From contig CAJBOM010000206.1 of NCBI GenBank assembly GCA_903956835.1, forward strand, positions 1-40,429: a stretch of DNA of 40,429 nt. The letters are read 5' to 3'. Below the pieces are notes generated by a model, which was given only the letters and a program-made list of their open reading frames with translations, was not told the origin of the DNA and searched no databases. This document shows positions 22,583 through 40,429 of this stretch, one piece after another; the stretch's first letter is position 1; every line of letters begins with the position of its first letter. The stretch comes from an uncultured Verrucomicrobiota bacterium (GTDB taxonomy: Bacteria > Verrucomicrobiota > Verrucomicrobiia > Methylacidiphilales > Verrucolacustridaceae). The translations under genes and the position numbers were made by a program.

Positions 22583-23263
22583 GTGAGGAAATCCCAGAAA
22601 AGAAGAGTGGAATTAAATTTGCTGAAACGAGCGGCGGCGGAAGCGGCTTTAGCTTATGTGCCGAAGGGCTGTCTGTTGGGGGTAGGAACGGGATCGACGA
22701 TGATGTATTTTATTCGGGGATTGAAGAAGGGTTGGGTGAGGGGGGCGGTGCCCAGTTCTAAGAGAACGGAGCAGGCGTTGCGAAAGAGGGGAATCCGGGT
22801 GTTGAGTTTGAATCAGGCGAAGAGAGTGAGCTTGTATGTGGATGGGGCAGATGAGGTGGATCCAAAGTTGAGACTGACTAAGGGAGGTGGGGGTGCGTTA
22901 ACGAGGGAGAAGATTATCGCCACGGCGGCAAAAAAGTTCATCTGTATCGTGGATGAGTCGAAGTTGGTCAAGCGTCTGGGTAAGTTTCCCATACCGCTGG
23001 AGGTGGTTCCGATGGCACGGGATCAGGTGGCAAAGGAGATAAGAAAAAGGGGGGGCAGGCCGGTTTGGAGGAGGGGTTTTGTGACGGACAATGGGGGGGA
23101 GATTTTGGATGTGCACGGATGGAAAATTGATCACCCTGCAAAAATGGAGAAGGAGTTGGAAGCGATTCCAGGAGTAATTTGCGCGGGAATTTTTGGGGGA
23201 CGGCGTGCCGATCTCCTTCTTTTGGCGACGCCCCAAGGGGTCAAAAGAATTATAGCCTGCTGA
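22583..23263 (+). CDS. rpiA: Ribose-5-phosphate isomerase A
   Basis: LGVGTGSTMMYFI; LYVDGADEVDPKLRLTKGGGGALTREKIIA; FICIVDESKLVKRLGKFPIPLEVVPMA. GTG start. Confidence 0.94.
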   Translation: MRKSQKRRVELNLLKRAAAEAALAYVPKGCLLGVGTGSTMMYFIRGLKKGWVRGAVPSSKRTEQALRKRGIRVLSLNQAKRVSLYVDGADEVDPKLRLTKGGGGALTREKIIATAAKKFICIVDESKLVKRLGKFPIPLEVVPMARDQVAKEIRKRGGRPVWRRGFVTDNGGEILDVHGWKIDHPAKMEKELEAIPGVICAGIFGGRRADLLLLATPQGVKRIIAC

Positions 23264-24014
23264 GAAGTTCGGTGGTGAGTTGGCGGTAGCTGGCGGCGGC
23301 GGCTCCTGCATTATCGTATTCGTAAATGGTTTGGCCGTGACTGGGGGCTTCGGCGAGACGAACGGATCTGGGGATGATGGTGCGGAAGACCTGTTCTCCG
23401 AGGTGGGTGCGGAGATCTTGACTGACCTGTTGGCTGAGGCGGGTGCGGGTGTCGTACATCGTCAGAACAATTCCGAGAACTGCGAGGGTGGGATTGTGAT
23501 CTCCCTGTTTGATTCGTTCGATCAGGCTGAGAATCTTTCCGACTCCTTCAAGGGCAAAGTACTCGCATTGCACAGGAATAAGGATTTTGTCAGCGGCGAC
23601 AAGAGCACTGGTCATGAGGAGCCCGACGCTGGGTGGGCAATCGAGGATGATGAGATCGAAAGCGGGATCGTGGCGGAGGGGTGCGAGGGCATCGCGGACG
23701 CGAAGAAGGGGGTTCTCGATTCCGGCGAGTTCCATTTCTGCCCCCGCCAAATCCATCTCGGAGGAAAGGATTTGGAGATTCTCTTGCCGAGAAGATTGGA
23801 GCATGTCGATGGCACGGGCATTCCCGATAAGGACGGGGTAGAGGCTTTTACCAGGGACGATTTCGAGCCCAAGGCCGCTGGTGGCGTTGGCTTGGGGGTC
23901 GAGATCGACGAGGAGAACGCGGCGACCTGCCTCAGCGGCGCCGGCCGCTAGGTGGATGGCGGTGGTGGTTTTCCCCACGCCCCCTTTCTGGTTGCAGATG
24001 GCGATGGTGTGCAC
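23250..24014 (-). CDS. ParA/Soj family ATPase
   Basis: AICNQKGGVGKTTTAIHLAAGAAEAGRRVLLVDLDPQANATSGLG deviant Walker A. GTG start (VHTIAICNQ) at 24014 preferred over 24272. No parB in the window. Confidence 0.9.
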   Translation of the reverse strand: MHTIAICNQKGGVGKTTTAIHLAAGAAEAGRRVLLVDLDPQANATSGLGLEIVPGKSLYPVLIGNARAIDMLQSSRQENLQILSSEMDLAGAEMELAGIENPLLRVRDALAPLRHDPAFDLIILDCPPSVGLLMTSALVAADKILIPVQCEYFALEGVGKILSLIERIKQGDHNPTLAVLGIVLTMYDTRTRLSQQVSQDLRTHLGEQVFRTIIPRSVRLAEAPSHGQTIYEYDNAGAAAASYRQLTTELLSRL

Positions 24015-24072
24015 AAAGAAGGAGAACGGCGGAGGGGGTGTCTTGTCGAGCGAATTTCTGGCGGCGGTGGGC

Positions 24073-24100
24073 TTGACCTTTGGCGTATAGTTTCTAAAAT
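24073..24100 (+). promoter_or_regulatory. Candidate sigma70 promoter TTGACC-N16-TAAAAT upstream of the ABC operon
   Basis: Hexamers at 24073-24078 and 24095-24100, 13 bp before the ATG at 24113. Confidence 0.5.
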
Positions 24101-24112
24101 TTACGATTCGCC

Positions 24113-25039
24113 ATGATCCGAGTTGAAAATTTAACAAAGAAGTATGCGGGAGGAGAGGCAGTGCGGGGCATTTCCTTCTCGGTGGAAAAGGGGGAGGTGG
24201 TGGGATTCTTGGGGCCGAACGGAGCGGGAAAATCCACAACCATGCGGATTCTGACCGGCTTTTTGCCTGCAACGGACGGGCAGATTGAGGTGGCGGGGGC
24301 GAAATTACCTGAGGAGAGCTTGCTGGTGCGCCAGCGGATCGGATACATGCCTGAAAATGTTCCGCTTTATCCCGAGATGAGAGTGGAGGAGTTTTTGGAG
24401 TATCGAGGTCGATTGAAGAGAGTTGCGCGGAAGGGGATTACGGAGCGGGTAGGATTAGTTCTGGATCAGTGTGGTTTGTCGGATGTGCGGAAGAAAATTA
24501 TCGGAACCCTTTCTAAGGGATTTCGGCAGCGGGTGGGCCTGGCAGATGCTTTGATTCATAATCCGCCTTTATTGATTTTGGATGAGCCGACCGCGGGTTT
24601 GGATCCGCATCAGATTCGCTCCTTTCGTGAGTTGATCAAGGATTTGGGGCGGGACCGTACGATTTTGCTCTCGACCCACATTCTTTCCGAAGTGGAAATG
24701 GTCTGTCGACGAGCGATCATCATCAACCGAGGAAAGATTGAGGCGTCGGATACTTTGGCCAACTTGGCCAAGAGGGTGCAAGCGGGGGCTTTACAGATTG
24801 AGGTGAAAGCGGATCCAGTAGGGGCGAGGGAGAAGCTGGCCAAATTGAGCGAAGTTGGGGGTGTGGTGGAATTAAACCGGGTGGGAGAGTGGGTATCTTT
24901 TGAGGTGACGGCCTTACCAGGGAAGGATATTCGCGGAGAAGTGGACGGTTTGATTAAACGGGAACAGTGGCCCTTGCGAGATTTCCGTCGCGAAAAGGCC
25001 CGTCTGGAAGATGTCTTTGTGGAGTTGACGCAAGAATAG
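24113..25039 (+). CDS. ABC transporter ATP-binding protein (GldA-like)
   Basis: Walker A GPNGAGKSTTMRIL, signature LSKGFRQRVGLADAL, Walker B LLILDEPTAGLD. Confidence 0.93.
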   Translation: MIRVENLTKKYAGGEAVRGISFSVEKGEVVGFLGPNGAGKSTTMRILTGFLPATDGQIEVAGAKLPEESLLVRQRIGYMPENVPLYPEMRVEEFLEYRGRLKRVARKGITERVGLVLDQCGLSDVRKKIIGTLSKGFRQRVGLADALIHNPPLLILDEPTAGLDPHQIRSFRELIKDLGRDRTILLSTHILSEVEMVCRRAIIINRGKIEASDTLANLAKRVQAGALQIEVKADPVGAREKLAKLSEVGGVVELNRVGEWVSFEVTALPGKDIRGEVDGLIKREQWPLRDFRREKARLEDVFVELTQE

Positions 25040-34172: not shown

Positions 34173-34404
34173 GGACGGTGAGCGAATCGATTGATCGACC
34201 TTGGGAGCGAGACGAAGTTTCTGCGTATCGAACGTCCGAATATCGTCCTGGATGAGCAAGGTGCTGTGATAGCTCTCCTGGCGGCCTGTTCACCAGAAAA
34301 TCAAAAGGAGGGAGCGCGCATCTTGGTCTTTCCTGTCGACCGATTTGGGCGACGCCCCTGATCACCTCCCGGCCTTTGAAACTCAATCAAGCAAAGGGCA
34401 AAAA

Positions 34405-34611
34405 CTAAAATCCGTAGATGGCCTTCAGATGGATAAAGCGTCGACTGGAAGCATTCATCGAGGTCCGATCCCTGACGGTTACCTGTTCTCTGAATGTGTC
34501 TAAGGAAATTACGGATGTTTCCATGGTGTGGGCAGGGCCTGAGTTCCAGGTCACCAGATCACTGGAGACTTCCACGACGAAGTCGAAGTCCAATCGATTT
34601 TTTAAGCGTGG
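34405..34611 (-). pseudogene. In-frame continuation of the GH5 C-terminal module downstream of a TAG codon
   Basis: Same frame as 34612..37833. Reads PRLKNRLDFDFVVEVSSDLVTWNSGPAHTMETSVISLDTFREQVTVRDRTSMNASSRRFIHLKAIYGF then TAG. Confidence 0.8.
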
Positions 34612-37600
34612 CTAGGTGATGGTTAAAAATCCCCCTGAGTCAAGAATCACTGGGTAAGGGTTCGAGATGCCGCTCATAGAAGTTAAGGGGCTCAAACCTG
34701 AGCCGTATGAAAAGAGATTGGCATGGCCGTCCCGATTTGCGTCTGCTGTGGGGCTACTCACATTTACTTCAGCGATTTGTGAGGCCGTGAACCACCGGTT
34801 CTGAAAAGAACTCCAGCTGGAGGTGCCCGAAGGTAAGGCGCTGAGGTCGACATTTTGGAAAGTAGCGGTGTTGAGCGTGTCATTTTTATGGGATGTCACC
34901 GCGAGGCCAATCTGAACAGCAGAGTTCATCGGGAGTATCACGGCATGCTGATCTCTCCAAGTCGCTCCATCGTCCGACTGCCAACCGGTGAAGGTATTGC
35001 CGCTGCGCAAGATTCGCAGCCACAGGGGCGCGTTGCGCACGCTGAGTTCGTGGTTGGATGTGTTTCCTCCCTCTGTGCTTCGCCACTGCATACGGGTACC
35101 TCCGCCTTGCGGGGTAACAAGCAAGGCGACATTTTTTGCGTTGGCGGCAATGGTCTCGCGCACCATCAAGCCCGCTTTCGCCCAGTAGTCCGTATTGTTC
35201 ATGGTGGCGAGACGGGCGATGATGACGAAGTCACCGCTTAGAATTTGGGAAACAAAATGGCACCCATCGGCAGCTCCCTCGATATCTGCCCCAGATCCTT
35301 TCAGTGTGAAGGTGGTATCAAGATAAGTGGTGCTGCCGGCAAGCCCTAGACTTCCGATGTCCTGCTGGATCCAACCCGTGGGAAGTGGTGAGTACACAAA
35401 TCCAACTTCGGCGGAGGGCTGGCTCGTATATGTTCCCGCATGTGAAATGATGCGGTAGCTGTTCGTGGCTCCACTCGTTGGGGAGGGGTCGGTGAAAGAG
35501 GTGGCAGAAATATCGGTAGCGATGGTCTGAAACAACGACTCCCCCGACGACGTGCGCCTTTGCACCGAGTAGTGAGTTGCGCCCAGCATGGATTTCCAAC
35601 TAACCGTGCCATCTGAAATGGCGACACCCAAGGGAATGGCCGGAGGACCTTGGGTGGTTGAAAGAGATGTCATGAGGAAATATTCCCAACCCGAGATGAT
35701 GCTTTTGCTGCAAAGGACTGGGTCATTTGCATTTTGGGTCAAGAAAAGGGAATTGGGACCTTGTATGGCGACCGATCGGTTGAGTCGGTTGAGGGTAAAC
35801 TGCTCGTTACTTGCCAGCGTGGTGGCATCGGCATAGAGCCTGTTGTCGGAGGCTGAATACCGGACGTACTTGCCGTTGCTGGACCGAAGAGCCGTGCGCC
35901 CTGCTCCTGCATCGACCAAGGTAAATTGTGCGTTGGCAGTCTCCGAGGTTGCCTGACAAGTCAAAAGGTAAGGACTGCTGCTTTGCCATGATAAGTACCC
36001 CCCGTTATTTGCCTTGAGCGATACGGTGGCCTCCGAAACTGGAACTGAAGCCGTGTTTGGAATAGTGTTGCTGGTCTTGGTGAATCGAATCGAGTTGATG
36101 TTGCACTCACTCGAACCTGTATTTGCGATTCGTATCGACTGAACCCCTGTAGTAGAAAAACCGCCATTTACGGTAACGGTGTTCCAATTTCCCCAGCCGC
36201 GGTCCGGCACCGAGGCGGTGACCAAAGTTTTGGTGCCATCGCCACTTTGAATCTGAAGGGTGGAGGTCTGTCCGGAACCATTGGCGACACGGAACGCGAT
36301 GTCATAAGTTCCGGTGGCCGTCACATCGACGGTGTATTTCATCCACTCGGTCGGCTTGAAAAAACCAACATTATAGCCGTTGGAAAGAGAGTCGGAGCAG
36401 GTTTCGATATCCACGCCGCCGTTTCGATAGGTCCAACGCTCGTTCCAAGCGTTGTATTCACCAGTAGTATTAAGGACATTTTCCCAGCCGGTGTCCGAGC
36501 AGGCGTGACCGTTCATACCCTGGTCATAGTTAGCGGCGTAAACCTCCATGCCTGGAATCGTCGGAATAGTACTATAGGGTGCGGTGGTGCGATTGCCGGG
36601 TTGATTAAAAATTGCACGAAGAACCTCGGTCTGGGTTTGGGTATTGGCCAGGCGAACACTCTCAGCTAGCTGAGTCAGCGTGGTGCGGGCGGTGTCTGTG
36701 CTCAAATTTGGATTGGTACCGCCCAGATAGTTTAGCAAGTCCTGATAACCGGGGGGGAAGGTGGCTTTGGAAAGACAGTTGATGCTGTCGAACTTTTTCA
36801 TGGGCCACCAGGACATGCCGATTCCTTGGCCGCGGAGTAGTTCGACCATTTTGGTGAAGTTGTCGTTGCTATTCTCCCCATGCTCTCCGCACCAAATCGG
36901 GCGGTTTTGTTCGGTTCGCATATCGAGGGCAAATTGAATGTCCGAGCTGAAATCTGCCGAAGAGCTGTACTTATGGAACACATAGACCATCTGGTCATCC
37001 CAAGAAGGAGTGAGACCGGTATAGTCGTTGCTGTAGCTATTCCCTTCGATGAAGAGAATGTGACTATCTCCATTTGCCCGAATCGTCTCGGTCAAATTGA
37101 CGTAGAGCTCACGCAAGAGGGTTCCTCCTGGAAGGGTCCAGTTGGGTTCGTTGATCAGGTCATATCCCGCGACCCACACCTCATTTTTGTAGCGCTTGGA
37201 AAGCCGATCCCAAAGCCGGACGGTTTTGCTGCGATTCTCTGCACTTTCCCAGAGCGATGGTTTGGTGGAGTCATAGTCACTGATCCCACTGTTATTGCTT
37301 TGTCCGCCCGGTCCGGCGTGCAGATCGAGGATGACGTAGATCCCGGCTGCTGTGCACCAAGAGATAATGTTGTCTAGAAGGGTGAAGCCTTGATCATTCC
37401 ACACATCGGGGGTTCCGAGATTGACGAAGTATTCGTAGTGCAGGGGGAGACGCACCGCATTGAAGCCCCACGCCTTGATCTGGTTGATGTCGGCCTGGGT
37501 GACGTGGTTGGACAGCCACGAATCGTAGAAAGTCTTCACGCTGTCGGAGCCCACCAGGGTTGTCAGCTTTTGCTTCCACGTGTGCTGGGCGGGGGCTTGG

Positions 37601-37833
37601 CTTTCGGAATTCATGATGTACCCCTCCATCACCATCCAGTTACCCATGTTGACGGCGTTTAAAATCATCTCCTGGCCAGTTGTGCTGTGGATGATTTTGG
37701 TTCCGCTCACTTGCAGAAGCTGAGCGAAGGCGTCGGAATGCAAAACAGGAAACAAAAAGAGGGCTGCGATCACCAACGTGTGAAAGTAGGCCTTGGGTGG
37801 ATGGCAATTGTGATGGGAAATCATATCCAACAC
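34612..37833 (-). CDS. Secreted multidomain glycoside hydrolase: GH5 (exo-beta-1,3-glucanase-like) + CBM6-like + fascin-like beta-trefoil + FN3-like + DUF1349-like domain
   Basis: Signal peptide; GH5 with YDLINEPNW and RPIWCGEHGE catalytic Glu motifs; NGGVDIETCSDSLSNGYNVGFFKPTEWMKYTVDV (CBM6-like); VSLKANNGGYLSW...NGKYVRYSA (fascin-like). Ends at an in-frame TAG at 34612-34614. Confidence 0.88.
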   Translation of the reverse strand: MLDMISHHNCHPPKAYFHTLVIAALFLFPVLHSDAFAQLLQVSGTKIIHSTTGQEMILNAVNMGNWMVMEGYIMNSESQAPAQHTWKQKLTTLVGSDSVKTFYDSWLSNHVTQADINQIKAWGFNAVRLPLHYEYFVNLGTPDVWNDQGFTLLDNIISWCTAAGIYVILDLHAGPGGQSNNSGISDYDSTKPSLWESAENRSKTVRLWDRLSKRYKNEVWVAGYDLINEPNWTLPGGTLLRELYVNLTETIRANGDSHILFIEGNSYSNDYTGLTPSWDDQMVYVFHKYSSSADFSSDIQFALDMRTEQNRPIWCGEHGENSNDNFTKMVELLRGQGIGMSWWPMKKFDSINCLSKATFPPGYQDLLNYLGGTNPNLSTDTARTTLTQLAESVRLANTQTQTEVLRAIFNQPGNRTTAPYSTIPTIPGMEVYAANYDQGMNGHACSDTGWENVLNTTGEYNAWNERWTYRNGGVDIETCSDSLSNGYNVGFFKPTEWMKYTVDVTATGTYDIAFRVANGSGQTSTLQIQSGDGTKTLVTASVPDRGWGNWNTVTVNGGFSTTGVQSIRIANTGSSECNINSIRFTKTSNTIPNTASVPVSEATVSLKANNGGYLSWQSSSPYLLTCQATSETANAQFTLVDAGAGRTALRSSNGKYVRYSASDNRLYADATTLASNEQFTLNRLNRSVAIQGPNSLFLTQNANDPVLCSKSIISGWEYFLMTSLSTTQGPPAIPLGVAISDGTVSWKSMLGATHYSVQRRTSSGESLFQTIATDISATSFTDPSPTSGATNSYRIISHAGTYTSQPSAEVGFVYSPLPTGWIQQDIGSLGLAGSTTYLDTTFTLKGSGADIEGAADGCHFVSQILSGDFVIIARLATMNNTDYWAKAGLMVRETIAANAKNVALLVTPQGGGTRMQWRSTEGGNTSNHELSVRNAPLWLRILRSGNTFTGWQSDDGATWRDQHAVILPMNSAVQIGLAVTSHKNDTLNTATFQNVDLSALPSGTSSWSSFQNRWFTASQIAEVNVSSPTADANRDGHANLFSYGSGLSPLTSMSGISNPYPVILDSGGFLTIT

Positions 37834-37849
37834 ATATCTTAGGCGGGCT

Positions 37850-37878
37850 CCTCGAAACAGCTAGTAGCCCTTTCGAGG
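37850..37878. repeat. Perfect inverted repeat CCTCGAAA-N13-TTTCGAGG between GH30 and GH5
   Basis: 8-bp perfect arms at 37850-37857 and 37871-37878, 17 bp upstream of the annotated GH5 start. Confidence 0.7.
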
Positions 37879-37910
37879 GGGATAGGGTAGCGCGGCCCAG
37901 TATCAAAAGG

Positions 37911-39353
37911 TCAGAAAATAAAGGTCGAAATCGATCGGGGTAAGGCCTTGATATCGGTCGCCTTGCCTTTCATCCAGAAGGTGTAATCGAGCGGTTTGTC
38001 GGATGTATTCATGACAACAGCCACCAGAGAACCGTCAGGATTGAGGAAGGCGCTGGCCAGCAGGTCTTGCCGATTGACTGAGGTAGCTATTCGTTTTGCC
38101 CCAGGAAGAACAAATTTTGAAAAGTGACCTAAGTAGTAGTAGGAGTTGGTGTACTGAATTTCCCCCGTTTTGGTGTTAGCATGGATCGGGGCAAAGCAGA
38201 AGTTACCGACGTGATTCGGACCGCCCGTTTCGTCGAGTAAAATGTTCCAATCGGTCCAACCGACCGCGCCGGCGTTGAGGTCCCCCATGAGCGAGCGCCC
38301 GTAGCGTTCACCCAAGGACCAGTCGGAGATGCGTTTCTGGTCAAATCCCTCGACGCAACCCTCGGTAAACAGAAGGTTGATGTTGGGGAAAGCTTCCTTC
38401 ACGCGGCTGAGGTTCTCAAACATCATCGGGCTTCCCGTCCATGTTTCGTACCAGTGAAATCCCAATCCCCAGACATAGGAGGCGGCCTCTGGGTCGCTGA
38501 GAATGACGCTGGCTCGCTGATAGATCAGGTCGCGGTTGTGATCCCAAGCGATAATCTTTTTTTCGCCTAGGCCGCTCTTTTTTAAGGTAGGGCCGAGGTG
38601 ATTTTTGATGAAATCTCTCTCCTCCTCTGCGGTGTAAAGGCAGGACTCCCACCGTTGCACGGCCATGGGCTCATTTTGGGCCGACAAGCCCCAGATCGGA
38701 ATGCCCGCTTTTTCGTACTCTTCGATTGTCCGAACAAAGTAGCGGGCCCAAGTTTCATAAAACTCAGGCAAGAGCTTGCCTCCTTGGACCATTTTTTTGC
38801 TGTCTTTCATCCAGGCGGGAGGACTCCAAGGACTGAGGTAAACAGGGAGGGGTTTCCCAGCGGTTTCGAGGGCAAGGCGGATCAGGGGAATCCGGAACTT
38901 GAGATCAGGGGCGATGCTAAAGCTGGCGAGAGTGGTATCCCCGTCTGGGACATAGGTGTAGCTCCCAGAGGAAAAGTCGCAGCTATGGATCGTGGTTCGA
39001 ATGAGGGAGTAGGCAATTCCGTCCTGCGGGGAGAAGTAAGCCCGCAGGATTTCCTTCTGTTTCTCCGGGGGTAGTTTGGAGAAGGTTTCGGCAGCCGCAT
39101 CGGTGATTGCCCCGCCGAAGCCGAGGATAGTTTGAAAGGTCTTGTCGGGATCAAGAAATACACAGGCTTGGTTCTCGCGCGGTTGGGCATAGGCCACCCA
39201 AGTTGGAGAGTTGGTTTCTTGCAGGCGGAGTTCAGTCCTAGCGGCGGTCACATAGGCTTTAGGTTGCGCCGCAACGCAGGGAGCGCTTGTGGAAATCATC
39301 CCGCAAGTCAGCAGGAGAAGAAAAAGTTGTCGAGGTGAGAGAATCACAATCAT
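37911..39353 (-). CDS. Glycoside hydrolase family 30 (glucosylceramidase / beta-1,6-glucanase-like)
   Basis: ILGFGGAITDAAAETFSKLP; YLSPWSPPAWMK; LSAQNEPMAVQRWESC; LLFTEGCVEG. Start at 39353 gives the signal peptide MIVILSPRQLFLLLLTCGMISTSAPCVAA. Confidence 0.92.
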   Translation of the reverse strand: MIVILSPRQLFLLLLTCGMISTSAPCVAAQPKAYVTAARTELRLQETNSPTWVAYAQPRENQACVFLDPDKTFQTILGFGGAITDAAAETFSKLPPEKQKEILRAYFSPQDGIAYSLIRTTIHSCDFSSGSYTYVPDGDTTLASFSIAPDLKFRIPLIRLALETAGKPLPVYLSPWSPPAWMKDSKKMVQGGKLLPEFYETWARYFVRTIEEYEKAGIPIWGLSAQNEPMAVQRWESCLYTAEEERDFIKNHLGPTLKKSGLGEKKIIAWDHNRDLIYQRASVILSDPEAASYVWGLGFHWYETWTGSPMMFENLSRVKEAFPNINLLFTEGCVEGFDQKRISDWSLGERYGRSLMGDLNAGAVGWTDWNILLDETGGPNHVGNFCFAPIHANTKTGEIQYTNSYYYLGHFSKFVLPGAKRIATSVNRQDLLASAFLNPDGSLVAVVMNTSDKPLDYTFWMKGKATDIKALPRSISTFIF

Positions 39354-39467
39354 GTCGATACTCTGATTCGTGGCTCGCGAAAAGTCGACCCCGCGGAGAG
39401 TGACTACCCGAAAGAGTGAGAACGTGAAAAGGGTACACCCGAGAAAGGCAAAGATCTTGACCGATGA

Positions 39468-40429
<962 letters not shown>

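Follow-up and report, generated by a model that had tools for sequence, protein, structure and literature searches.

A probable recent nonsense mutation in the C-terminal module of a multidomain GH5 protein from an uncultured Verrucomicrobiota bacterium

Young nonsense-mutation pseudogenes and truncated alleles in bacteria are characterized by a single substitution that creates a stop codon, by a downstream frame that is still intact, and by intact orthologs in sister species. Stop-codon readthrough and recoded TAG, achieved by amber suppressor tRNAs or pyrrolysine, also present an in-frame TAG with conserved coding sequence beyond it. The locus described here lies in a window of 40,429 nucleotides (the whole stretch of DNA that was analysed) and bears a likeness to both. 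Compared with the former, it stands out in that the stop comes after most of the protein, the catalytic and carbohydrate-binding domains included, and the tail alone is lost. In contrast to the latter, the TAG is not conserved, the genome yielded neither a suppressor tRNA nor a PylS above cut-off, RF1 is present, and TAG serves as an ordinary terminator. The protein itself resembles the GH5 exo-beta-1,3-glucanases and the GH5-CBM6 enzymes in its GH5 and CBM6 sequence matches, to which it adds fascin-like and DUF1349-like domains as well as a C-terminal module that has no Pfam or NCBIfam model.

The gene is read on the minus strand, where an open reading frame at 34612-37833 encodes 1073 amino acids up to a premature TAG, as supported by the reading frame, Pfam and PDB matches, and an ortholog of 90% identity in the congeneric genome G002. 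It is present in a single copy in the genome. The N-terminal part of the frame appears, by eye, to carry a Sec-type signal peptide. Pfam recovers GH5 (E = 1e-33), CBM6, and a fascin-like domain in the 1073-residue protein, together with a DUF1349 match below cut-off. Among solved structures, the GH5 part has matches to GH5 enzymes, including exo-beta-1,3-glucanases (PDB 8z2w and 1eqp), while the CBM6 part matches PDB 8zvk. Far upstream of the TAG, the DLINEPN and GEHGE stretches are intact; in GH5 enzymes, these contain the acid/base and the nucleophile. A GH30 enzyme gene (39503-37911) adjoins the GH5 gene and is followed by a GH1 gene; the adjacency of the three within 34405-40429 suggests a beta-glucan degradation cluster.

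Read in one frame on the minus strand, the end of the gene runs ...ILDSGGFLTIT-TAG-PRLKNRLDFDFVVEVSS...RRFIHLKAIYGF-TAG. The first TAG (34612-34614, minus strand) falls at a position where orthologs have tyrosine, outside any homopolymer or repeat. It is followed, in the same frame, by 68 sense codons (34408-34611) that form by homology the second half of the C-terminal module, and then by the ancestral terminator of the gene (34405-34407), also a TAG and found at the same place in the congeneric genome G003. The entire module, as delimited by homologous copies, covers 34408-34818 on the minus strand (137 codons counting the TAG) and is broken in its middle, after the first 68 residues. A 68-codon open run has a computed chance of about 4% in sequence of like composition, and homology is the stronger evidence that the tail is coding. 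The tail shares 96% protein identity with the uninterrupted tail of G002, and identity with a distant ortholog is 49% across the entire module. The sequence-only reading had described an in-frame TAG inside a conserved C-terminal module with coding sequence continuing past it; this description is borne out by the G002 tail, and the alignment of the C-terminus with homologues, which it had proposed, shows that the 68 downstream codons are similar to the module in other proteins.

The search for orthologs covered 20 congeneric genomes (the present genome being G000), among which G002 provides the sole full-length ortholog found. It has TAT at the TAG site and no stop up to the same end, and the distant ortholog (L095, from a public MAG) has TAC, so that the orthologs combine a sense codon at the site with an uninterrupted frame, as a nonsense mutation would have it. 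The TAG is one base away from either codon, and Tyr or Phe occupies this column in 24 of the 33 aligned copies of the module, in agreement with the earlier proposal that a single base change had replaced a Tyr codon. In G003, the final 58 codons are retained, with 84% identity to the G002 tail, and they adjoin the phosphoglycerate-dehydrogenase (serA) gene as in the window. This fragment was considered as a decayed remnant and rejected, as the end of the contig cuts it before the TAG position. No ortholog or module copy sharing the TAG was found in the congeneric genomes, in L095, or in a module search across 62 genomes of the order; on the sequences compared, the TAG is private to the present genome.

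The module follows the pattern DGxxNLxxYALGxxP...LTxTYxR...VxxSxDLxxW...VTVRD...RRFxRLK, in which the terminal RRFxRLK motif is strongly conserved. A profile built from four copies and run on the 62 genomes returned about 118 matches in 29 of them, which supports the earlier view that such a C-terminal module is real and widespread. Many large proteins of the order carry it at their extreme C-terminus, and in 33 of 36 aligned copies no more than 7 residues separate the end of the match from the stop codon. A genuine internal stop occurs in one of the ~118 matches, that of the present gene. The TGA codons in two other matches (G020:C5 and G015:C28) were considered as recurrent recoding and rejected; each TGA ends a shorter copy in the normal way and is overrun by the match. 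Neither Pfam nor NCBIfam holds a model for the module, and searches of these two databases and of the PDB gave no credible identity. The lone NCBIfam match, in one of 21 module members, is to the pilus-like Amuc_1099 family (NF042425, E = 8e-7). An AlphaFold prediction from a four-row alignment was unusable (pLDDT 43), and a literature search returned nothing specific. That the module acts as a secretion or anchoring signal, as was first put forward, is a guess. It is nonetheless the by-product of interest here: an uncatalogued domain with export, surface retention, or folding as possible roles.

The most probable explanation of the interrupted frame is a recent single-base nonsense mutation, from a Tyr codon to TAG, that truncates a secreted glucanase. 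We infer that the organism itself carries the TAG and produces the shortened protein. In this lineage, one base change would have removed the last 69 residues of the secreted multidomain GH5 enzyme, with ribosomes terminating at the TAG through RF1. The product would retain the signal peptide, the GH5, CBM6, fascin-like, and DUF1349-like domains, and half of the module. Whatever role the module has would probably be lost, surface retention and export being guesses.

Substitutions in the tail bear on the age of such a stop. Over the 68 codons, the present genome and G002 differ by three nonsynonymous and seven synonymous codon changes, and dN/dS between them is about 0.10 downstream of the TAG versus 0.22 upstream. 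Polarisation with G003 and L095 assigns two nonsynonymous and one synonymous change to the branch of the present genome and none and seven, respectively, to that of G002, a contrast below significance on small counts (Fisher p = 0.067). Such counts are compatible with a very recent loss and are too few to prove relaxation. If neutral over the whole branch, the tail should have accumulated roughly 19-25 changes, versus the three or four observed; thus, either the stop is of late origin or selection still acts on the tail. The substitution data alone fit both, and parsimony favours a young stop, which would date to roughly the last 4-38% of the branch if the tail evolved neutrally from then on; these figures are upper bounds obtained with differing assumptions. 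One of the changes puts His in place of Arg in the RRFIRLK motif. Because two other module copies carry the same residue (FMHLK), this change by itself does not demonstrate lost function. The polarisation is to be read with the caveat that the G003 tail has diverged further than the adjoining non-coding flank, for which reason the GH5 gene may have recombined.

If the TAG were instead an error of assembly or consensus, or an allele of a minority strain that entered the MAG consensus, the organism would mostly have Tyr at this site and make the full protein. This deserves serious weight while being unlikely. The TAG is one base from TAT or TAC, the tail after it is almost undecayed, and the genome is a draft of 218 contigs, 90.5% complete and 3.4% contaminated. 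However, the absence of a homopolymer or repeat at the site speaks against it. So does the state of the other genes: over ~18 kb, the comparison with G002 and G003 shows no other gene to be broken, so base accuracy is not generally poor in this contig. A ParA-like gene (23250-24272) was considered as broken relative to G003 and rejected, as both genomes carry an intact copy and differ only at its extreme C-terminus and in an untranslated leader. In addition, about 3.7% of random substitutions in the open reading frame give a stop, and a lone error would not be expected in the first place to be one, an argument weakened by the fact that the finding was picked for being a stop. Of the three causes named in the sequence-only reading, the very recent nonsense mutation and the sequencing error are thus both viable, while the third, readthrough yielding two C-terminal forms, found no support.

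Programmed or tolerated readthrough of the TAG, by which short and long forms of the enzyme would coexist with the tail kept under selection, is very improbable. The conservation of the downstream codons between species (dN/dS ~0.10) would suit it, and so would the base after the TAG, a C, which makes for a comparatively leaky stop-codon context. Yet the TAG occurs in no relative, and the between-species conservation is mostly older than the stop, the branch of the present genome showing two nonsynonymous changes to one synonymous. The undecayed continuation, for which readthrough had been named as one of three causes, is expected after any young nonsense mutation and does not count as evidence for readthrough. 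The check for a suppressor tRNA that had been called for gave none with a CTA anticodon among 42 tRNA genes in the 90.5% complete genome (41 typed by ARAGORN, and one at a contig end typed by eye as tRNA-Val(GAC)). Matches to PylS all fell below threshold, which is also the case in most control genomes, whereas RF1 (prfA) is present above cut-off. TAG terminates six of the 25 complete open reading frames of at least 200 residues in the window, the present gene included, and it is also the true end of this gene, which efficient suppression would read through as well. The RNA past the TAG folds no more strongly than its shuffles (z = -0.44). The narrower proposal of a lineage-specific leaky TAG, producing short and long glucanases that differ in location through the module, is fainter still.

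Adaptive truncation, in which loss of the module changes the location of the enzyme, e.g., by releasing it from the cell, is scarcely credible: the remaining domains are intact, and the closeness of the module to the stop codon (33 of 36 aligned matches) is what one would expect of a sorting or anchoring domain, but anchoring or export by the module is a guess, and the truncation is seen in one genome, where nothing points to selection in its favour. As a stop codon, the TAG is of minor importance, as it represents either a young truncation of an ordinary kind or a mistake in the assembly; if it were confirmed by reads, this natural truncation would offer a ready test case for the role of the module.

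Some minor observations concern the records and the surroundings of the gene. Of two public ortholog records, L094 (JASGCJ010000033.1) is titled Candidatus Paceibacterota and L095 (CAMCUY010000020.1) Akkermansia muciniphila. The former matches the contig of G002, a congener of the present genome, so its title looks wrong, and the title of the latter looks doubtful. Similarity to G002 ends 16 bases past the end of the GH5 gene (position 34389 of the window, 13710 of L089), while G003 retains the serA side and its contig terminates within the same GH5 gene; the similarity break at this gene is, from these alignments, a rearrangement or an assembly breakpoint. The GH5 protein is just 90% identical to its G002 counterpart, whereas its GH30 and GH1 neighbours reach 98%.
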